Assembly: GCA_001767195.1 (NCBI GenBank)
Contig: MEKU01000005.1
Location: forward strand, 98,126-141,217
Source of the DNA: Acidobacteria bacterium RIFCSPLOWO2_02_FULL_67_21
Lineage (GTDB): Bacteria > Acidobacteriota > Vicinamibacteria > Vicinamibacterales > UBA2999
Length of the DNA stretch: 43,092 nt
Direction: 5' to 3'
Below are positions 10,233-30,695 of this stretch, in pieces. The notes beneath the pieces were generated by a model. That model ran no database searches, was not told where the DNA came from, and worked only from the letters and a program-made list of their open reading frames with translations. The translations under genes and the position numbers were made by a program. Numbering within the stretch: the stretch's first letter is position 1; the number at the start of each line of letters is the position of its first letter.

Positions 10233-10792
10233 GCCGCTTCTCCCAAGTACCGTCGCAGCCATAGACCGCCAACGTCTATTGGGAGAGTGCGCTCTAACCC
10301 GTTGAATGCGCGGATTCTAGCACGCGCAACCGCCGCGCCAGGACGCCGCCATTACGTGCGAACCAGATGCCCAACAGCGCGGAATCGCCCGCAGCACACG
10401 CCCCAGGGCACGAAGCGCGACAAGTGCGGCGGCTGCAGCCTACTGCGCCCTACAGGCGATCCGCCGGGCTTCGCACATCTACAACGGCACGGTGCAGAAC
10501 GCGCGCGTGGGTCATTGTCCTCTGAGGCTCGCGGTAGCTGTGGCAGGTCCGCTCATTCAAGCCGGGAGGTGCGGCATGTCCGGAGGAAAACCGTAGTCAG
10601 CGTAAGCGCGACGCGAGGCTGGTGGCGGCAGCCGCGCAATCCGAGTGCGACGAACGGAGCCGGTTTTCCGGAGGACATGCCGCGCCTTCCGGCGATCCCG
10701 CCGGGTCCGCGGCTCGATGGCATGCGGCTCGCCGCGGAACCGGCCTACCTGCAAAGCCTGGCCCCGGCGCTACGACGAAATGAAGGTGACGC
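10233..10792. other. 560-base gap without convincing gene
   Basis: Both strands are open in places because of high GC, but no frame gives a recognisable domain or a supported start. The stretch follows the truncated DUF5615 gene and contains the large imperfect inverted repeat at 10561-10693. It reads as decayed or non-coding accessory DNA. Confidence 0.55.
10561..10693. repeat. Large imperfect inverted repeat
   Basis: The 32-base arms at 10561-10592 and 10662-10693 are complementary at 27 of 32 positions. They share GCGGCATGTCC and end in AAAACC/GGTTTT, with a 69-base spacer. The central part of the arms differs as GGAGG against TCCGG, that is, in a short block. Possible readings are a small non-autonomous mobile element or a structured RNA. 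It is not related to the other repeat families in the window. Confidence 0.65.
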
Positions 10793-12736
10793 TCAGGCGG
10801 ATTTGGCAAAGTAGTCGATCACCGCCGCGGAGGCCCTGGGGCCGATCACGGCGGCGAGCTCTTCGCGCGTGGCGCGGCGGACGCCCGCGAGGCTGCCGAA
10901 CGCCTCGAGCAGCGCGCGCCGGCGCCGCGGACCGATGCCGGGCACCGCGTCGAGCTCCGACTGCAGGTCGCGCATCGAGCGCGCCTTGCGGTGGAACGTC
11001 ACCGCGAAGCGGTGCGCCTCGTCCCGGATGCGCTGCAAGAGCAGCAGCGCCGGGTCATTCTCGGCAAGCGCCACCGGCTCAGGCCGGTCGCGGAGGAAGA
11101 GCAGCTCTTCCCGCTTGGCAATCCCGACCGCAACGAGGTTCCCGAGCCCCACCGACTCGAGCGCGTCATACGCGGCGGTCAGCTGCCCCTTGCCGCCGTC
11201 GATCAGAATCAAGTCCGGAAACGGGCCGCCATCCTCGACGAGCTTGCGGCAGCGCCGCTGGACCACTTCACGCATTGCAGCGAAATCATCGTTGCCGGCC
11301 CGTTCGGCCCGGCTGAAGCCGGGCACTACGTACGCCGGGGTTTGCGCGTTGGGCTTTGGGCCCGCCTTCGCTTCGCTTCGGCGAGGTCTCGCCGGAGCCT
11401 GCGGCGGAGGCGGAATTTGGGATTTGGGATTTGACAGGCCCCTGATCCGGAACTTCCGGTATTCCGCCCGCTTCATGCGCCCGTCTTCGCAGACGACCAT
11501 CGACGCCACCGTCTCGCTCCCCTGGATGGTCGAGATGTCGAAGCACTCGATCCGCCGCGGAATGGCGGGCAGGCCGAGCGTGGTCCGTAACGTTTCGAGC
11601 GCGTCGAAATGCGCCGCCGTATTCTCGTTGAAGCGCGTGCGGTAGGAGAGCTCGGCGTTCCGCGTGGCCAGTTCCACGAGCGCCCGCTTGTCGCCCCGCT
11701 GCGGCACCAGGAGGCGCACGCGCCGCCCGGCGCGCGCCGACAGCCAGGCCTCGATCGCGTCGGCATCCTCCACCTCGACCGGCAGATGGATGTCGGCTGG
11801 CGGAATCCGGTCCTCGTAGAACTGCTGCAGCGCCGCCTGCAGCACGTCGGCGTCGCGCACGGCCACGCCGCCCGGCTCGGTCGCCAGCTCCACACGCTCG
11901 ACGACCCGCCCGCCGCGCATCGCAAACACCTGCATGGCGCCGCCGCTCGGCCCCACCTTGAGCCCGAAGACGTCGCGATCGCCCAGGCCCGGCGTGGCGA
12001 CCTTCTGCTGACGGTCGCTCAGGATCTCCACCGTCCGCAGCGCGTCGCGCAGCTGCGCCGCCTCCTCGAAGCGCTCGCCGACGGCCGCGTCGGCCATCCG
12101 GTCGTGCAGCGTAACAATCAGATCGTCGTTCCGCCCCTCCAGCAGGAGCCTCGCATCCTCCACGGCGTCGCCGTAGCGCTCCTGGCTGCAGAGCTCGGCC
12201 ACGCAAGGCGCAATGCACCGCTTGATGTCGTACTCGAGGCAGGGCCGGGCCCGCTCCCCGGTGATCACCTCATTGCACGACCGGATCCCGAACAGCCGGT
12301 GCGCCAGCCCCATCGTCCGGCGCGCCAGCTTCGCGGGCAGAAACGGGCCGGCATAAAAGTCTCCGCCCTTCTCGACGCGCCGGGCCACCAGGATCCGCGG
12401 GAACGGCTCGCTCGTGGTCAGCTGCAGGTACGGGTAGTTCTTGTCGTCGCGGAGCAGGATGTTGTACCTGGGGCGACGCTGCTTGATGAGATTGTTCTCG
12501 AGCGCCAGCGCCTCCATGACCGAGTCGGTGACGATGACCTCGATCGAGGCGATCTCGTCGAGCAGCGCGTCGTGCCGCGGGCTCATGCCGGCGGCGCCCA
12601 GGTAGCTGCGCACACGATCCCTGAGCGCACGCGCCTTGCCGACGTAGATGGTCTCGCCAGCCGCATTGCGCCACAGATACACGCCAGGCTGTTCGGGCAG
12701 CCGCGCAATCTGCTCCCGCAGGGACATGATAGACAT
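10793..12736 (-). CDS. uvrC: Excinuclease ABC subunit C with repeat-derived insert
   Basis: 647-residue nucleotide-excision-repair endonuclease, which makes the 3' and 5' incisions after UvrAB loads UvrB on damage. The GIY-YIG nuclease is at about 15-95 (PGVYLWRN, IYVGKA, catalytic-type E80 in ALENNLIKQRRPRYN). A UVR motif (RFEEAAQLRDALRTVE) is at about 205-230. The RNase-H-like nuclease has D400 in ECFDISTIQGSE and a later LIDGGKGQL. A C-terminal helix-hairpin-helix (VPGIGPRRRRALLEAF) is present. Residues 435-482, between YRKFRIRGL and DDFAAMREV, are not found in normal UvrC and are translated dispersed repeats (see separate entries). All catalytic motifs remain, so the protein may still work. 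Confidence 0.96.
   Translation of the reverse strand: MSIMSLREQIARLPEQPGVYLWRNAAGETIYVGKARALRDRVRSYLGAAGMSPRHDALLDEIASIEVIVTDSVMEALALENNLIKQRRPRYNILLRDDKNYPYLQLTTSEPFPRILVARRVEKGGDFYAGPFLPAKLARRTMGLAHRLFGIRSCNEVITGERARPCLEYDIKRCIAPCVAELCSQERYGDAVEDARLLLEGRNDDLIVTLHDRMADAAVGERFEEAAQLRDALRTVEILSDRQQKVATPGLGDRDVFGLKVGPSGGAMQVFAMRGGRVVERVELATEPGGVAVRDADVLQAALQQFYEDRIPPADIHLPVEVEDADAIEAWLSARAGRRVRLLVPQRGDKRALVELATRNAELSYRTRFNENTAAHFDALETLRTTLGLPAIPRRIECFDISTIQGSETVASMVVCEDGRMKRAEYRKFRIRGLSNPKSQIPPPPQAPARPRRSEAKAGPKPNAQTPAYVVPGFSRAERAGNDDFAAMREVVQRRCRKLVEDGGPFPDLILIDGGKGQLTAAYDALESVGLGNLVAVGIAKREELLFLRDRPEPVALAENDPALLLLQRIRDEAHRFAVTFHRKARSMRDLQSELDAVPGIGPRRRRALLEAFGSLAGVRRATREELAAVIGPRASAAVIDYFAKSA
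11306..11333 (-). repeat. REP-like family A copy inside uvrC
   Basis: This 28-base stretch is, on the minus strand, identical to 14430-14457, an intergenic REP copy. In uvrC it is read in frame as [10 protein letters not shown], near the end of the 48-residue insert. Confidence 0.9.
11388..11433 (-). repeat. AAATCCC-type family B copy inside uvrC
   Basis: 46 bases that, on the minus strand, match the intergenic stretch 17562-17607 at 45 positions, the first 38 without a mismatch. In uvrC they are read in frame as [16 protein letters not shown]. With the REP copy at 11306-11333 they account for most of the insert. Confidence 0.9.
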
Positions 12737-12835
12737 CTGAATTTACGGATTGATGAATTTACGAATTGACGGATTCGAGTGCCACACTACAATGCGTAAA
12801 TCTGTAGATTCGTAAATCCGTCAATGGCTGAAACC
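12737..12835. repeat. TTTACG-type dispersed repeat, family C
   Basis: This AT-rich stretch in the divergent uvrC/phosphatidyltransferase gap has tandem copies of GAATTTACGRATTGA on the left and inverted copies (CGTAAATC, TTCGTAAATCCGTCAAT) on the right. The arms can pair. It must also contain the promoters of both genes or transmit them. Confidence 0.7.
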
Positions 12836-14384: not shown

Positions 14385-14457
14385 AGCCGAGCACTACGAG
14401 AGAGATGCGCCGAGCACTACGAGAGAGATGTACGTAGTGCCCGGCTTCAGCCGGGCC
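14379..14457. repeat. REP-like family A cluster with 21-bp direct repeat
   Basis: This intergenic block between convergent genes contains GGCTAAAGCC, then two direct copies of CCGAGCACTACGAGAGAGATG (14387-14407 and 14410-14430), then a complete REP (14430-14457). It supplies the TAA of the upstream gene (14382-14384), and its last base is part of the TAG of the downstream minus-strand gene. Confidence 0.85.
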
Positions 14458-15305: not shown

Positions 15306-16087
15306 TTGACGCCTCGCATCTCCGGATACGGGTAGTACTGCTCGATGTCGAAGGCATAGCACTCGTAGTCGAGCAGCTGCGCGCCCGGGTCCTTGTGGCG
15401 GTACAGGACCATGCTCATGTTCCACGGGCGCGTAAACACCTTGGCGTCCTCGACCGTGAGGTCGTACCGGATATGGTCGGGGCCCATCGGGGTGTACCGC
15501 TCGACCAGATGCATCACCTCGCTGTGGAAGTTGCCCGCGCGGTCGAACCAGTTGCCGTCCTGGAAGTGCACGACGTCGACGACCAGGCTGTCGCCCTCCC
15601 ACCGGCCGCGCGAGTCGCCCAGCCACCACTCGATCGGGCCTTTCGGGTGCGGCGAGTCCATGAAGATGTAGCGGATCGCGTGCGCGTACTCGTACAGGAC
15701 GGTGATTTCCTTCGGCGTCTGGACGATCTGAAATGGCAGCGGCGTGTAGGTGAGCCGCGGCACGCCGGGCAGGTGGCACCTGGCTTCAGGGTCGAGCGTC
15801 GCACGCTGCTCGTAGTTGGCGCGCCTCTTCTCGAGCGCCCACGGCTGATATGGGAGGTCGCCGCCGATGACGACCCCGACACCTCCCGGGACGCCTTTCC
15901 GGGCGGCGTGCGGCTGGATGTCCCAGGCGGCGGTGTTCAAGACCTGCCAGAGACCTGACAGGTCGGGCTTGCCGTCGGCCGTACGGGGGATCGTCGAGGT
16001 GGCAGGCTGCGCAGGACCGCCCTGGGCGGTGAGGCAGACAGGCAGCCAGAGGAGAGCGAGCATGAGGTGCGCGCGCCCGGGCCGCAT
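15302..16087 (-). CDS. Exported protein of unknown function, first of a tandem paralogous pair
   Basis: 261 residues with a signal peptide ([17 protein letters not shown]). The same scaffold as the next gene is visible in order: [94 protein letters not shown]. Translation of the downstream paralogue is coupled through an ATGA overlap, so the two are likely made together and may form a complex. Function is not known. Confidence 0.82.
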
Positions 16088-16099
16088 CGAGGCGGAGTA

Positions 16100-16951
16100 T
16101 TACCCTACCGCCGCCTTTTTCGCAACCTGGGATCGTGGGGCCTTGGCCTTGGCCTTGGCCGGACGCTTCTTCTCCTTGCTTACCGAATCGAGGCTGCGGC
16201 GAAGCGCCTCCATCAGGTCCACGACCTTCGGCGGCTCCTGCGCTTCGAGCGACACGATTTCCTCGCCGGCTATCTTGGCGTCGATGATCTGGCGGAGCCC
16301 CTCGGTGTACTCGTCCTTGTAGTCCTTCAGGTTCAGTTCGGCATCGAAGGTGGCGATCACCTGCTTCGCCAGCTTCATCTCCTCGGGCTTCACCTTCGAC
16401 GGCACCGAGTTGAGCTCGTCCACCTGGTCGATGCTGCGGATCTCGGCATCGTGATGCAGCGTGTACATCACGAGCCCCTTCTTCCGCGGCTTGATCGCCA
16501 CGAGATATTCGCGCCCGTAGAGCGCCACCTTGCCGATGCCCGCCTTCCCGGTCATCCCGTCCCGCATCACCGCGAACGCTTCGGCGGCCATCGGGCCGTC
16601 GGGCGCCAGATAGTACGCGCGGTCGACGTAAATCGGATCGATCTCGGCCGCGTCCGCGAACTGCACGAGGTTGATGACACGGGTCGATTCGACGCGGACC
16701 TTCTGCATGTCTTCGTCGGTGACGATCACGTAGCGACCCTTCTCGAACTCGTAGCCCTTGGCGAGCTCCGTATTGGCGACCTCACGCTGACACTGCGGGC
16801 ACCACCGCTTCTGCTGGATGCGCGTCTGGCACTCGGCGTGAAGCTGGTTGAACGAGAGCGTGGCGGCCGACTCGGTGGCCGGGAACACTTTGACCGGGAT
16901 GGTCACCAGGCTCACCTTCAGGAAGCCTTTCCAGGTTGGACGAATCGCCAT
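16100..16951 (-). CDS. ku: Ku protein (non-homologous end joining)
   Basis: 283 residues. Bacterial Ku forms a homodimeric ring that binds DNA double-strand ends and recruits ligase D. The family start [21 protein letters not shown] is intact, as are [54 protein letters not shown] and the C-terminal [16 protein letters not shown]. The lysine/alanine-rich tail ([17 protein letters not shown]) is typical of the DNA-binding extension and is encoded by a short GGCCTT tandem repeat. No ligD gene is present in this window. Confidence 0.96.
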
Positions 16952-16978
16952 ACAGCGCGCTTATCGGCTCAGAGGCCC

Positions 16979-17542
16979 CTAGACTGCATCCTGATCGCTC
17001 CGGCTCCCCAGGTCCAGCCCGGCGCCGCCGATGTGGATGTCGTGCGCCTTGATTCGGTCCCTGAGCAGCCGCCGCGCCTGCCCGTAGAGGTGGCCGGGCA
17101 CTTCGAGGTGCCTGGCAATGCTGCGGAAGCGCGAAATCAGGATCAGCGTCACCGACTCCCCCTCTTTCCAGGAGACGGCCGAGATCTGGCCCCAGGGCAT
17201 GAACCCGCTGTCGGACCAGACGCCGTCCTGATAGAACCCCCGCGCGATCCGGGTGCTGAGCGGCACCGCGTAGCCGAAGTACAGGAACATCATCACCTCG
17301 CCGAACAGCTGCCCCGGCGAGCGGCCGAGGATGAAGATCTTCACGATCAGCAGCAGGCCGAGCACGGCGCCGAGCGCCAGCGCGAACCCGTAATAGCGCG
17401 GTTTCGGGTTCTCCCAGATCAGCAGGGCGGAGGACTTTCGGCTGTGGAAGCGGAGCAGATCCGCCGTGACCTTGACGTTGGCCGCAAAGAACCCCACGCC
17501 GAACATGAAGAGCAGCTGCGGCAGCAGGAACTCCGGCGCCAT
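16979..17542 (-). CDS. Small membrane protein, DUF5673-like
   Basis: 187 residues with three hydrophobic segments near the N-terminus: [40 protein letters not shown] and a weaker one at [12 protein letters not shown]. The soluble C-terminal part reads [19 protein letters not shown] and [20 protein letters not shown], a pattern resembling DUF5673/PH-like bacterial membrane proteins. I cannot assign a role. It follows Ku's promoter region on the same strand with a 27-base gap, but a functional link with Ku is not shown. Confidence 0.75.
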
Positions 17543-17561
17543 ACGATCAGGGTGACATACA

Positions 17562-17607
17562 CAAATCCCAAATCCCAAATTCCGCCTCCGCCGCAGGCTA
17601 CGGCGAG
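17562..17607. repeat. AAATCCC-type dispersed repeat, family B
   Basis: This is the intergenic copy of the element also found inside uvrC (11388-11433, 45 of 46 bases identical). A shorter diverged copy lies inside uvrA (29841-29870). It lies in the divergent promoter region between the small membrane protein gene and the DUF255 lipoprotein gene. Confidence 0.88.
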
Positions 17608-17647
17608 GCTGATGGTGCAGAATGTGAGGGCAGGAAGACCTGTCCCG

Positions 17648-19681
17648 ATGAGCCCCGCCCGCCGTCTGCTGCTCCTCGCGCTGTGCGCCGCCGGCGCCGG
17701 CTGCCACCAGGCGGGCCCCCAGGCCAATCGCCTGATCGCCGAGAAGAGCCCCTACCTCCAGCAGCATGCGCACAACCCGGTCGACTGGTACCCCTGGGGT
17801 GCTGAAGCGTTCGAGAAGGCCCGGCGCGAGGACAAGGCCATCTTCCTCTCCATCGGCTACTCCACGTGCCACTGGTGCCACGTGATGGAGGCCGAGTCGT
17901 TCTCCAATCCGGAGATCGCCGCGTTCATGAACCAGCACTTCGTCTCGATCAAGGTCGATCGGGAGGAGCGTCCCGACCTCGACCGTCAGTACATGAACTA
18001 CGTGATCGGGGTGAGCGAGGGCGGCTGGCCCATGTCGCTCGTCCTGATGCCGGACCTGCGGCCGTTCTTCGGCGCCAATTACCTGCCGCCCGACGATCGC
18101 GACGGCCAGGTAGGCTTCCGCACGCTGCTGCAGCGCATCGCCACGCTCTGGGAGACCCGCCGGAGCGACGCGCTGCGGGCCGCGGCCGACGGCACACAGG
18201 CGCTCGAGGCGCGGAGCGCGCTGACGCGCGGAGCGGCCACGGCGCCGGATGAGGCGGAGCTCGATCGCACGTTCGAGGATCTCAGCGCCAGCTTCGATGC
18301 CTCCGCCGGCGGCTTCGGCGGCGCGCCGAAGTTTCCCCGGCCGGTGGTGCTGAACTTCCTGATGCGCTACTACGCGCGCACCGGGTCCGCACGCGCGCTG
18401 GACATGGCGCTGGAGACCCTGCGGGCCATGGCGCGCGGCGGCATCCGCGATCATCTGGGCGGAGGCTTCCATCGGTATGCCGTCGATCGCGAGTGGCGCC
18501 TTCCCCACTTCGAGAAGATGGTGTACGACCAGGCGCAGCTGGCCGCCGCCCTCGTGGATGCCTATCAGGCCAGCGGCGATGCCCTCTTTGCCGATCTCGC
18601 GCGCGAGACGCTCGACTACGTCCTCCGCGACATGCGCGATCCCGAGGGTGGCTTCTACTCGGCCGAGGGCGCCGCGGTCCTCAGCGAACGTCACTCCGTC
18701 GAGGAGACGGCGGGTCGCTTCGGCGTCTCCGGGCGGGACGTGCGTGCCAGGCTGGCTGCCGCGCGGCAGATCCTCTTCCACGCGCGCGGCTCCCGGCCCC
18801 GCCCGGCACGCGACGACAAGGTGCTTGTCGCCTGGAACGGCCTGATGCTGTCGGCGCTCGCGAAGGCCTCGGTCGTCCTCGACGGACCGACGTATCGCGA
18901 CGCCGCGGTCGCCGCCGCCCGCTTCCTCGAGCGCCGCCTCTACGACCCCGCCACGGAGACGCTGGTACGGCGCTATCGGGCGGGCGATGCCGCCGTCGCC
19001 GCCCTCCTGGAGGACTACGCCTTCCTGATCCAGGGGCTGCTGGATCTCTCTGAAACGTCCTTCGACCCACGCTGGCTCGCGTGGGCGCTGCGGCTGCAGG
19101 CGCAGCAGGACCGCTGGTTCTGGGACGACCGGGAGGGCGGCTACTTCTCCACCCGCGCGGATGCCGCCGACCTGCTCACCCGGGTCAAGGAGGAGTACGA
19201 CGGCGCCGGGCCGTCGGCGAACTCGGTCTCGACGATGAACCTGCTGCGATTGTGGCAGTTGACGGGTCAGCAGAGGTGGCGCGACCGGGCGGACGCAACG
19301 TTCCGTGCGCTCTCGCCACGGGTCGCCCGGTCGGGCCTGGCGCTGCCCCAACTGCTGGCCGCGCTCGAGTTCTCGCGCTCGCATACCACGCAGATCGTCA
19401 TCGCCGGCGACCGCGACGCGCCAGACACGCGCGCGCTCCTGAAGGTCGTCCACGATCGGTTCATCCCGAACCGGATCCTCGTGCTCGTCGAGGAGGGGCG
19501 GCAGCAGGAGCTCGTCGCCGCACAGGTGCCGTTTGTCTCGGGAATGGGCCGCCGCAGCGGCCGGGCCACGATCTATATCTGCGAGAACTCCGTGTGCCGG
19601 CTGCCGACCGCCGACCCGGCCGTCGCCGCGCGCCTGCTGGACGGCGCCCGGGGACATAACCAACGTAGTGCCCGGCTTTAG
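17648..19681 (+). CDS. DUF255/YyaL-type thioredoxin-fold lipoprotein
   Basis: 677 residues. A lipoprotein signal ([15 protein letters not shown]) precedes the conserved DUF255 start [21 protein letters not shown] thioredoxin-like domain carries CHWC at residues 74-77 in [16 protein letters not shown]. The remainder is the (alpha/alpha)6-type region seen in YyaL/spermatogenesis-associated protein 20 homologues ([54 protein letters not shown]). The biochemical activity of the family is not established. The ATG is chosen because the lipobox follows it at the right distance. The final residues (QRSARL) and TAG stop are encoded by a REP element. Confidence 0.93.
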
Positions 19682-20903: not shown

Positions 20904-21010
20904 AGGTGGTAGGTGGTAGGTGGTAGCCGGTAGCCAGCAGTGAACGCTCCATCCTATCAACTACCCACGATCGACTACCATCTCGTGCTACCGGCCTACC
21001 GGCTACCAGC
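20904..21010. repeat. CTACCA-type family D inverted repeat region
   Basis: Three tandem GGTGGTA units (from 20904) are followed by GGTAGCCAGCAG. Inverted versions (CTACCACC-like, CTACCGGCTACCAGC) appear at 20971-21010. It fills the divergent efp/hsp20 promoter region and resembles 2323-2357. Confidence 0.7.
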
Positions 21011-27113: not shown

Positions 27114-27719
27114 TCACCGGGACACGGCTGGATGCCCGGTCACCCAGCAGCGCCAGGGCCGCTCCACGCCGACGCGGATGCCGATCCGCGGCCCCCACGA
27201 GACCGCCGCCGCCTCACCACTCCAGTCTTCAATCGCAAGCCGGCCGCTCGACACCAGGTCGAGCCGGTTCTGCGCCAGGGTGATACCCAGTGCGCGGGTG
27301 AGATTGCCGGGGCCCCGGCAGAGATCGTGGTCGGAGAGGTCGCCGCCCGGCCGGGCGCGGCGGCGCCGCATCGCCGCGAGCCCTTCGAGCGGATGCAGCG
27401 CGCGGACCAACACGGCGGCCGGGCATCCTTCCGTCTCCGTGACGGCGTTCACCAGATAGTGGATCCCATAGTTGAGGTACACGTATGCCACGCCCGGTGG
27501 ACCGTAAAGCGGCGCATTGCGCACGGTCGGGCCGGGCGCGGCGTGACACGCCGGATCGTCCTCGCCGATATAGGCCTCGGCCTCGACAATCATGCCGGCG
27601 GCGAGGCCGCCCCGCATCCGATGCACGAGCACCTTGCCCAGCAGCTCCTTGGCGACCACCAGCGTGGGCCGGTTGTAAAACGACCGCGGGAGCACGGGAT
27701 AAATGGGGTCGGAGGTCAT
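27114..27719 (-). CDS. mpg: 3-methyladenine DNA glycosylase (AAG/MPG family)
   Basis: 201 residues. Removes alkylated purines in base excision repair. Conserved segments are LPRSFYNRPTLVVAKELLGK, IVEAEAYIGEDDPACHA with the catalytic Glu, NAPLYGPPGVAYVYLNYGIH and LCRGPGNLTRALGI. The frame is open to 27770, but everything before MTSDPIYPVLPRSF is encoded by a long inverted repeat. I place the start at the ATG at 27719, which lies in that repeat; a GTG at VLPRSF is an alternative. It sits downstream of uvrA on the same strand, so two repair genes are linked. Confidence 0.93.
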   Translation of the reverse strand: MTSDPIYPVLPRSFYNRPTLVVAKELLGKVLVHRMRGGLAAGMIVEAEAYIGEDDPACHAAPGPTVRNAPLYGPPGVAYVYLNYGIHYLVNAVTETEGCPAAVLVRALHPLEGLAAMRRRRARPGGDLSDHDLCRGPGNLTRALGITLAQNRLDLVSSGRLAIEDWSGEAAAVSWGPRIGIRVGVERPWRCWVTGHPAVSR

Positions 27720-27775
27720 TTTTCGAGGACACATGTGCCGATGTCCTCGAAAAATGACCTCCGACCCCATTTATC
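27698..27775. repeat. Perfect 34-bp inverted repeat bridging uvrA and mpg
   Basis: Arms 27698-27731 and 27742-27775 are complementary at all 34 positions around a 10-base spacer that includes CATGTG. The right arm holds the TAA of uvrA (27771-27773) and the left arm holds the proposed ATG of mpg (27717-27719). AAATGGGGTCGGAGGTCATT-type motifs at the ends suggest a REP/RAYT-type mobile palindrome. That affiliation is from memory of similar elements and not verified. Confidence 0.92.
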
Positions 27776-30695
27776 GTATGGCATACGCATGCGTCCGGCT
27801 CGACGCGAGCACCTCGCGCAGCGCACGGCCGGTATACGACGCGTCAACCGCGGCCACACGCTCAGGCGTACCGGTGGCGATGACCTGCCCTCCACCCTCG
27901 CCCCCCTCGGGCCCGAGATCGATCACATAGTCGGCGGTCTTGATGACGTCGAGATTGTGCTCGATCACGAGCAGCGTGTGGCCGGCCTCCACCAGCTTGC
28001 GAAACGCGGCGAGCAGCTTCGAGATGTCGTCGAAGTGAAGGCCCGTCGTCGGCTCATCCAGGATGTAGAGCAGCCGCTCGCCGCCGAACGAGGCCAGGTG
28101 CGCCGCGATCTTGATCCGCTGCGCTTCTCCGCCGGAGAGCGTCGTCGCCGGCTGTCCCAGCCGCAGATAGCCGAGCCCGATTTCCTCGAGCACCTGCAGC
28201 CGGCGCAGCACCTTCGGCGACGTGCTGAAGAAGGTGATGGCCTCGCGCACGGTCATGTCGAGCACCTGGTGCACGTTCTTGCCCCGGTAGCAGACCTCCA
28301 GCACCTGCGGCTTGAAGCGCCTGCCGTCGCACTGGTCGCACGGGACGAACACGTCGGCCAGAAACTGCATTTCCACGCGCACTTCGCCCTCACCCTGACA
28401 GGCCTCGCAGCGGCCGCCCGGGACGTTGAAGGAGAAGTGGCTCGACGTGAGCCCCCGCGTGCGCGCGTCCTTCGTCGACGCGAACAGCGCGCGGATCGGA
28501 TCGAACGCCTTGAGGTACGTCACCGGGTTCGAGCGCGGCGTCCGCCCGATCGGCGCCTGGTCGACGAGCACCGCGTCGCTGATGTACTCGAGCCCCTCGA
28601 GCGCTCGAAACGCCCCGACCCGCCGATCCCAGCCGCCCTTGGCCCGCTTGATGGCTGCATAGAGGACGTCATGGACGAGCGTCGACTTGCCGGAGCCGCT
28701 CACGCCGGTCACGCAGGTGAGCGTGTTGAGCGGGACCTCGACGTCGATCTGCTTGAGATTGTGCTCGCGGGCGCCGAGCAGCCTGATCTTCTGGCCAACC
28801 CCCTTCCGCCGCGCCGACGGCACCGGGATGGCCAGCTCCTGGCGCAGATACTTGGCGGTCAGCGATCGTGCCTCCTGCAGGAGCCCGGGGAGATCGCCCG
28901 AGTACACGACCCGCCCCCCCTGCTCGCCGGCGCCAAGCCCCATGTCGACGATGTGATCGGCGACGCGGATCATGTCCTCGTCGTGCTCCACGACGAGCAC
29001 GGTGTTCCCCTGGTCCCGGAGCTGTCTGAGAATCTCGATGAGACGCTGGTTGTCCCTCGAGTGCAGCCCGATCGACGGTTCGTCGAGCACGTACAGCGTG
29101 CCCACGAGCGCCGAGCCCAGGGAGGTGGCCAGGCTGATGCGCTGCGCCTCGCCGCCCGAAAGCGTCGACGACAGTCGATCGAGGGTCAGGTAATCGAGCC
29201 CCACATTCACGAGAAACGCCAGGCGCCGGCGGATCTCCCGCAGGACCTTGTCGGCAACCGCAACCTCCTTGTCCGTCAGGTCCAGCTGGTTGAAGAACTG
29301 CTGCCCCTCACGGACCGTCAGCGCCGACACCGCGTCGATCGTCCGGTCCGCAATCCGGACGTCGCGTGCCTCGCGCCGGAGCCGTGCGCCTCCGCAATCC
29401 GGACACGGCAGGTACCCCCGATACCGGCTGAGAAAGACGCGGACGTGCACCTTGTACTTCTTGCGCTCCAGCCACCGGAAGAAGCCGCGGACGCCGTCGT
29501 AGTCGGTCGACGGGTCTCCCTCGACGACGTATGCGCGCTCGGCATCGGTCAGATCGCGCCACGGCACATCGAGGCGCACGCTCGCCTTCCGGGCCGTCCG
29601 CTTCAGCTCCGCCAGCTGCGCCCGGTAGTGAGGCTTGCTCCAGGGCTCGATCGCGCCCTGATTGATCGACTTCGACGCGTCGGGCACGACCAGCCCCATG
29701 TCGAGCTCGATGATGTTGCCGAACCCGTGGCAGGTCGGACAGGCGCCGAACGGGTTGTTGAACGAGAACAGCCTCGGCTGCGGGGCCTCGTAGGCGATCC
29801 CGCATGCGCGACACTCGAAACGTTCTGAGAACTCGACCCTCTGGGGTTTGGAATCTGGGATCTGGGATTTGTCGCCGTCTCCGAGCACGATTGCAAATGC
29901 CGCCCCACCGCCTTCCCGGTACGAGGTCTCGATCGAGTCGGTCAGCCGGCTGCGCATGTCGCCGTCGATGCGCACGCGGTCGACCACGACCTCGAGGGTC
30001 GAGCGGCCGCTCAAGGCCGAGAGATCGATATCATCAAACGCCACGGCCTGACCCTCGACGAGCAGGCGGCCGAAGCCGCGGCGGCGCAGCGCGTTGACCG
30101 TCTCGACGATCGCGTCGAGCCCTGGGGCGGCAACCGGCCCGTTCTTCCCTTCCGAGTCGGTATCGCCCTCCTCACCTGTATCGGCATCGGCAGGCAGCAG
30201 CGCGACGACCGGGATCTCGTAGCCGATGAGCAGGCGGCTCCCGGCGGGGAGCGCCGCGAGCCGGCCCGCGACGATCTCGGCCGTCTCGCGCGTCACCTCA
30301 CGACCGCACTGGCGGCAGAACGTCCGCCCGATCCGCGCGTACAACAACCGCATGTAGTCGTGGATCTCGGTCATCGTGCCGACCGTGGACCGCGGGTTGC
30401 GAACGCTGTTCTTCTGCCGGATCGCAATCGCCGGGCAGATCCCCTCGATGCGGTCGACGTCGGGCTTCTCCATCCGCTCGAGGAACTGGCGCGCGTACGC
30501 CGACAGCGACTCCACGTAGCGCCGCTGCCCTTCGGCGTAAATCGTGTCGAAGGCGAGCGACGACTTGCCCGACCCGCTCACGCCGGTAATGACCGCCAGC
30601 GCACCCGACGGCACGGTGACGTCGACGTTCTTGAGATTGTGCGTGCGCGCACCGCGGACGACGAGAGGGCGGCGGGCCGGGGGGGTGTGGGACAT
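27771..30695 (-). CDS. uvrA: Excinuclease ABC subunit A with small repeat-derived insert
   Basis: 974 residues (E. coli 940). Damage-recognition ATPase of nucleotide excision repair. Two ABC ATPase modules are seen with Walker A GVSGSGKS (first at 38-45) and LSGGEAQRI signatures. Zinc-binding cysteines appear as CRACG/CPTCHGFG, CPDCGGARL and CEACQGEGE/CDQCDG. The frame is open upstream to 30869, but MSHTPPARRPLVVRGARTHN at 30695 fits the family start. Residues 276-285 (KSQIPDSKPQ), just before EFSERFECRACG, are encoded by an AAATCCC-type repeat. The stop codon lies in the inverted repeat shared with mpg. Confidence 0.97.
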   Translation of the reverse strand: MSHTPPARRPLVVRGARTHNLKNVDVTVPSGALAVITGVSGSGKSSLAFDTIYAEGQRRYVESLSAYARQFLERMEKPDVDRIEGICPAIAIRQKNSVRNPRSTVGTMTEIHDYMRLLYARIGRTFCRQCGREVTRETAEIVAGRLAALPAGSRLLIGYEIPVVALLPADADTGEEGDTDSEGKNGPVAAPGLDAIVETVNALRRRGFGRLLVEGQAVAFDDIDLSALSGRSTLEVVVDRVRIDGDMRSRLTDSIETSYREGGGAAFAIVLGDGDKSQIPDSKPQRVEFSERFECRACGIAYEAPQPRLFSFNNPFGACPTCHGFGNIIELDMGLVVPDASKSINQGAIEPWSKPHYRAQLAELKRTARKASVRLDVPWRDLTDAERAYVVEGDPSTDYDGVRGFFRWLERKKYKVHVRVFLSRYRGYLPCPDCGGARLRREARDVRIADRTIDAVSALTVREGQQFFNQLDLTDKEVAVADKVLREIRRRLAFLVNVGLDYLTLDRLSSTLSGGEAQRISLATSLGSALVGTLYVLDEPSIGLHSRDNQRLIEILRQLRDQGNTVLVVEHDEDMIRVADHIVDMGLGAGEQGGRVVYSGDLPGLLQEARSLTAKYLRQELAIPVPSARRKGVGQKIRLLGAREHNLKQIDVEVPLNTLTCVTGVSGSGKSTLVHDVLYAAIKRAKGGWDRRVGAFRALEGLEYISDAVLVDQAPIGRTPRSNPVTYLKAFDPIRALFASTKDARTRGLTSSHFSFNVPGGRCEACQGEGEVRVEMQFLADVFVPCDQCDGRRFKPQVLEVCYRGKNVHQVLDMTVREAITFFSTSPKVLRRLQVLEEIGLGYLRLGQPATTLSGGEAQRIKIAAHLASFGGERLLYILDEPTTGLHFDDISKLLAAFRKLVEAGHTLLVIEHNLDVIKTADYVIDLGPEGGEGGGQVIATGTPERVAAVDASYTGRALREVLASSRTHAYAIR
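29841..29870 (-). repeat. AAATCCC-type family B copy inside uvrA
   Basis: On the minus strand this reads AAATCCCAGATCCCAGATTC and continues CAAACCCCAG. The first 21 bases differ at only two positions from the copies in uvrC and at 17564. It is translated as KSQIPDSKPQ, in the same frame as KSQIP in UvrC. Confidence 0.75.

Follow-up and report, generated by a model that had tools for sequence, protein, structure and literature searches.

Dispersed hairpin repeats appear to occupy a single, predicted disordered loop of UvrC across an order of Acidobacteriota

INTRODUCTION

Why does the gene for a conserved repair enzyme, UvrC, contain dispersed repeats at a site that its reading frame crosses without interruption? 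A preliminary description of this DNA had proposed that two such repeats lie in frame inside uvrC, that the residues they encode have no place in normal UvrC, and had asked whether these residues form a loop between the halves of the nuclease domain. We analyzed the locus within the whole stretch of DNA (the window, 43,092 nt), to which all coordinates refer; residue numbers are those of the UvrC encoded in it. The reading that we favor, with a probability of about 0.8, is that the insert consists of mobile or self-renewing hairpin repeats in a disordered loop, where they are tolerated and translated and are swapped for one another. The features of the locus are as follows.

10793..12736, minus strand: uvrC, 647 aa, with GIY-YIG, UvrC RNase H and HhH domains (Pfam)
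11291..11443, minus strand: repeat-filled loop, UvrC residues 432-482 (R432-N482), 51 aa, delimited by length relative to outgroups and by AlphaFold2
11306..11333, minus strand: GTAG-tagged REP (GTACGTAGTGCCCGGCTTCAGCCGGGCC), translated ..YVVPGFSRA, identical to 14430-14457
11336..11434, minus strand: full copy of the dispersed family B hairpin element with heptamers at its ends, 92% identical to a copy in its own genome
11359..11415, minus strand: family B hairpin core, 57 nt, 83.9 bits at this site with covariance model R1
11412..11434, minus strand: AAATCCC heptamer array, translated ..NPKSQIP, a period-7 run

RESULTS

The UvrC loop and its order of elements

The window UvrC matched the PDB UvrC entries 3c65, 2nrt and 8b0q in sequence and fold, with its C-terminal half matching solved UvrC structures, and its nearest named UvrCs were from one Vicinamibacteria bacterium and one Acidobacteria bacterium. 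The loop follows a strand (427-431) and precedes a helix (484-502), with EYRKFRI before it and DDFAAM after it. The Pfam match to the UvrC RNase H domain was interrupted at approximately residues 434-479, the insert lying between the two halves of this domain, and AlphaFold2 returned pLDDT values below 50 for residues 436-480 with the flanking strand and helix well predicted. We accordingly rejected a folded extra domain in the loop; the model predicts a disordered segment around which the nuclease fold remains intact.

The frame contained no stop codon through the insert, and because the elements are open and frame-keeping they can be regarded as translated. On the coding strand, a short heptamer array (AAATCCCAAATCCCAAATTCC) is followed by the 57-nt hairpin, a C-rich heptamer-like stretch and then the REP. 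The insert had 55 BLAST matches in its own genome which, together with the 11 near-full hairpin copies described below, exclude chance. The two repeats were found in frame as first proposed; the REP adjoins family B and does not lie inside it.

Family B hairpins inside and outside genes

The 46-base family B match that had been described is real (11388-11433 against 17562-17607, 45/46 bases, on the opposite strand), but it covers half of the element, the partner being itself incomplete.

17562..17607, plus strand: truncated half copy of family B, in which query positions 98-143 alone match

This half copy precedes the likely start of a thioredoxin-like protein in a 1204-aa ORF (16067-19681), in which the conserved protein seems to begin only in the second half. 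The full element spans 11336-11434 and therefore also fills the stretch of the insert that had been left unexplained. Insert positions 46-144 were 92% identical to a copy in the same genome (G000:C5:169326-169424), and other copies there were 87-92% identical over most of 11336-11434; the element is about 85-99 bp long, ends here in heptamers of the AAATCCC type and has about 10-11 near-full copies in the genome.

Covariance model R1 found 11 copies in the genome at 72-86 bits (E <= 1e-11), as well as some three dozen of lower score; since the element is a palindrome, the latter were frequently hit on both strands. The fold z value of the hairpin core was -2.2 for the coding strand and -4.1 for its complement. 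RNAalifold detected zero compensatory changes among the family B copies of this genome, and the hairpin is therefore without covariation support within it.

Family B was also found in frame in other genes. Full copies were present in addA, encoding an AddA-type helicase-nuclease (at approximately residues 365-400, inside the UvrD domain), and in a metH-like protein between its two domains; a further full copy occupies the C-tail of a CDF cation transporter. The 2-oxoacid dehydrogenase E2 gene has a full copy in the linker and a weaker second one late in the catalytic domain, both in frame.

L043 1027-1104 and 1984-2060: two family B copies in the E2 gene

AddA, the metH-like protein and E2 share one frame of the element (..GSGETSPK..), and UvrC uses another. 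At the addA and metH-like positions, most relatives have a shorter and different segment. All five clear in-gene cases had the same direction (5/5), which is only suggestive of an orientation bias. Of the 11 strong copies, roughly half have no clear gene around them and are located upstream of genes or between them. Consequently, the term intergenic, under which both elements had been described, does not suit family B, given its copies in addA, the metH-like gene and E2; it does suit the REP, as shown next.

The REP and a candidate transposase

The 28 bases of the REP at 11306-11333 are 100% complementary to 14430-14457. A GTAG tetranucleotide adjoins a short stem-loop (GTAG-TGCCCGGCTTCAGCCGGGC), as in REPs generally, and the copies are often inverted dimers, several of them overlapping inverted pairs with a 16-bp offset. 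The genome contained 31 REPs in 391 kb, mostly extragenic, and the uvrC copy was the sole one clearly deep within a gene. A gene for a Y1 tyrosine transposase (RAYT, PF01797) was found in the same genome (G000:C10:14767-15093), and REPs of the uvrC-copy family occur on both sides of it (L094 1313-2110). Judged by this sequence arrangement, the uvrC REP was probably spread by a REP-associated tyrosine transposase.

Heptamer repeats in the genome and at other sites

The repeat background was sampled in approximately 0.4 Mb from each of two genomes, the window's own and that of a single-contig relative (G037). In both samples, 7 was the commonest tandem period among periods 2-15, as in the heptamer systems of Xanthomonas and Nostoc. 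The majority of the sampled arrays were intergenic or at the margins of genes, as far as a crude gene calling can place them. Arrays of the CTACCAC type occur at 2323-2352 and 20904-20933; one of the two adjoins a REP, and the other precedes what is likely an elongation factor P gene.

Two further repeats in the window concern uvrA and its neighborhood.

29832..29882, minus strand: uvrA loop, heptamer-derived in-frame segment (GDGDKSQIPDSKPQRVE), period-7 z 3.7
27698..27775, no strand assigned: third palindrome family (GGGGTCGGAGGTCATTT..), perfect 34-nt arms

The uvrA site of several relatives (L267, L268 and L274) contains heptamers or another hairpin. The inverted repeat at 27698-27775 is located just upstream of the gene neighboring uvrA, and nine half-sites of it occur in 391 kb of the genome. 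The metH-like linker of G038 (L352) is 110 aa long and carries a REP-like hairpin and heptamers.

Period-7 signals at P <= 0.01 were found in 23/38 uvrC loops, 7/28 metH-like linkers, 4/22 uvrA loops, 1/11 E2 sites and 1/23 addA sites. By these counts uvrC is the most occupied of the five sites, although the rates are biased because all five were chosen for a repeat in the window genome, with UvrC as the starting point.

The same loop across the order

We identified UvrC in 57 of 59 relatives. In the order to which the window genome belongs (in Vicinamibacteria, Acidobacteriota), the loop ranged from 5 to 62 aa (median 18; 51 sequences), compared with a median of 6 aa outside the order, where 60 of 61 UvrCs had loops of 5-11 aa. 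The residues of the window loop were absent from relatives. The single exception among the 61 is an Acidiferrales UvrC (L100) with a 30-aa loop at the same site. The length varied even within genera (8, 17, 27 and 44 aa in g21; 7, 9, 24 and 35 aa in g11). We also rejected the idea that the window genome alone has an insert here, since in relatives throughout the order the loop contains repeats unrelated to those of the window; for example, the loop of G026 (L027) consists of the third palindrome family, the one also present at 27698-27775.

The DNA of long loops is composed of 7-bp arrays, often a G-rich array and then its reverse complement, and the heptamer unit differs by genus, as in the following inverted arms.

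L022: GGGACCG..CGGTCCC
L018: GGGATTC..AATCCCC
L020: GGGAGTC..GACTCCC

We computed the pooled autocorrelation of the loop DNA of 37 relatives and obtained 0.489 at lag 7 versus 0.304 for shuffled sequences (z 22.3). Lag 14 was second highest and lag 3 was below expectation; codon periodicity cannot give a period of 7. Individually, 16 of 38 loops folded at z < -2 relative to dinucleotide shuffles.

The matching of the two arms raises the possibility that the hairpin is a selected nucleic-acid feature with arms that covary throughout the order: an mRNA structure, a signal for pausing or decay, or a signal in single-stranded DNA or G4 form. In 29 loops, the 5' half paired with its own 3' half by approximately 11 kcal/mol beyond the expectation from halves swapped between species (permutation P <= 5e-5), and the G-rich arm came first in 19 loops and second in none, both counts coming from sequences that are not phylogenetically independent. 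Among 14 inverted heptamer pairs elsewhere in the two sampled genomes, 11 were C-first and 3 G-first. Some loops are, moreover, very stable (L022, fold z -6.25). A self-renewing hairpin with covarying arms and a fixed polarity opposite to that of most other inverted heptamer pairs in the genome would, if under selection in mRNA or single-stranded DNA, have a role in uvrC expression or regulation. However, 13 of 51 loops are shorter than 12 aa, too short to form one, the window's own loop is weak in both respects (period-7 z 1.1, fold z -1.4), and templated repair of inverted arrays can keep arms matched without selection. We therefore regard a selected hairpin, and equally such a role in uvrC, as unlikely. 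What the constant polarity and the arm matching do suggest is that the hairpin is old and has been rewritten in place in much of the order; and as pairs in UvrC are G-first and those elsewhere mostly C-first, repeated random insertion is not by itself a sufficient explanation of the site.

Because 7 is not a multiple of 3, slippage by one heptamer unit in either direction would shift the uvrC frame and could turn off nucleotide excision repair as a form of phase variation, for which the near-perfect arrays of 3-5 units present in its coding sequence would be suitable substrates. No clearly frame-broken uvrC was found among the relatives (the matches in G006 and G008 each list one TAG), and most arrays are degenerate, which lowers slippage, so that we consider phase variation very improbable. 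An assembly chimera or mis-joined repeat deserves similarly little credence. Repeats are classic points of misassembly and the window genome is a draft of 107 contigs; however, the reading frame is kept, and the insert begins and ends precisely where relatives have a variable loop, among them G037 and G049, whose genomes are single contigs and whose loops measure 62 and 53 aa. That relatives have unrelated repeats there also makes a chimera unlikely. Mitochondrial bypass elements offer a parallel to hairpins inserted in coding sequence, but removal of the loop after transcription, by an intron, a ribosome bypass element or similar, can be practically dismissed, since it would not require the stop-free frame kept in nearly all loops of the order (51/52 open in one reading of the order, the remaining loop in a separate reading), and an Rfam scan of 10700-12800 returned zero families at E <= 1.

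DISCUSSION

A tolerated and exchanged set of translated repeats would account for the UvrC insert as follows. Two dispersed hairpin repeat elements may have landed, stacked, in a solvent-exposed, disordered loop of UvrC. Family B, with 7-bp repeats at its ends, probably spreads from one heptamer array to another through recombination or templated copying. An ancestral heptamer hairpin would have stayed at the site through repeated rewriting of its unit, and we infer that this rewriting proceeded by templated repair or conversion rather than by a fresh insertion each time. In some lineages, such as the window genome and G026, the ancestral hairpin may have been joined or replaced by other elements. 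Selection would need only to purge frameshifts and stop codons, and tolerance is the simplest account.

If this is the case, repeat DNA is a source of new sequence for a conserved repair enzyme, entering at a single fixed position throughout the order, from several unrelated families and with the frame kept. With some 50 natural variants, the order then lends itself to studying how palindromic repeats enter genes and what makes repair genes common hosts for them. A further lesson is that residues annotated as an insert in Acidobacteriota proteins may be translated repeats. The titles and abstracts that we searched, in which subscription journals are thinly covered, contained no description of the phenomenon for Vicinamibacteria or for uvrC.

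Three known systems bear comparison. Di Nocera, De Gregorio and Rocco (2013; PMC3733652) described GTAG-tagged REP hairpins translated in frame inside genes, with repair genes as frequent hosts (excinuclease ABC genes such as uvrA and uvrB, UvrD/Rep helicase and recBCD); inserts in one functional category sit at different sites there, except for recB in two Xanthomonas species. The uvrC insert shares the GTAG hairpin, the in-frame translation and the repair-gene host, and differs in that one uvrC site is used in many genera by several element families. Rickettsia palindromic elements (RPE), about 100-150 bp long, lie in frame in conserved proteins (Ogata 2000; PMC2229807). The analogy with them, already drawn in the preliminary description, is apt, as family B is likewise a hairpin found in frame in conserved genes and in intergenic DNA; we claim no homology, and here the genome is GC-rich, the elements are embedded in 7-bp arrays and they recur at one site. 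Rehm et al. (2015; PMC4692102) reported dispersed G-rich heptamer arrays (GGGAATC type) in Xanthomonas and Nostoc, often as convergent inverted pairs; those of Xanthomonas are 89-93% intergenic, and the prominent ones are not at the same genes in two species. The dispersed 7-bp arrays and inverted pairs are common to both cases, whereas the ones described here are found within uvrC again and again throughout an order. In-gene palindromes were thus already known, and the new part is a single fixed site in uvrC that is filled by changing repeat families order-wide.
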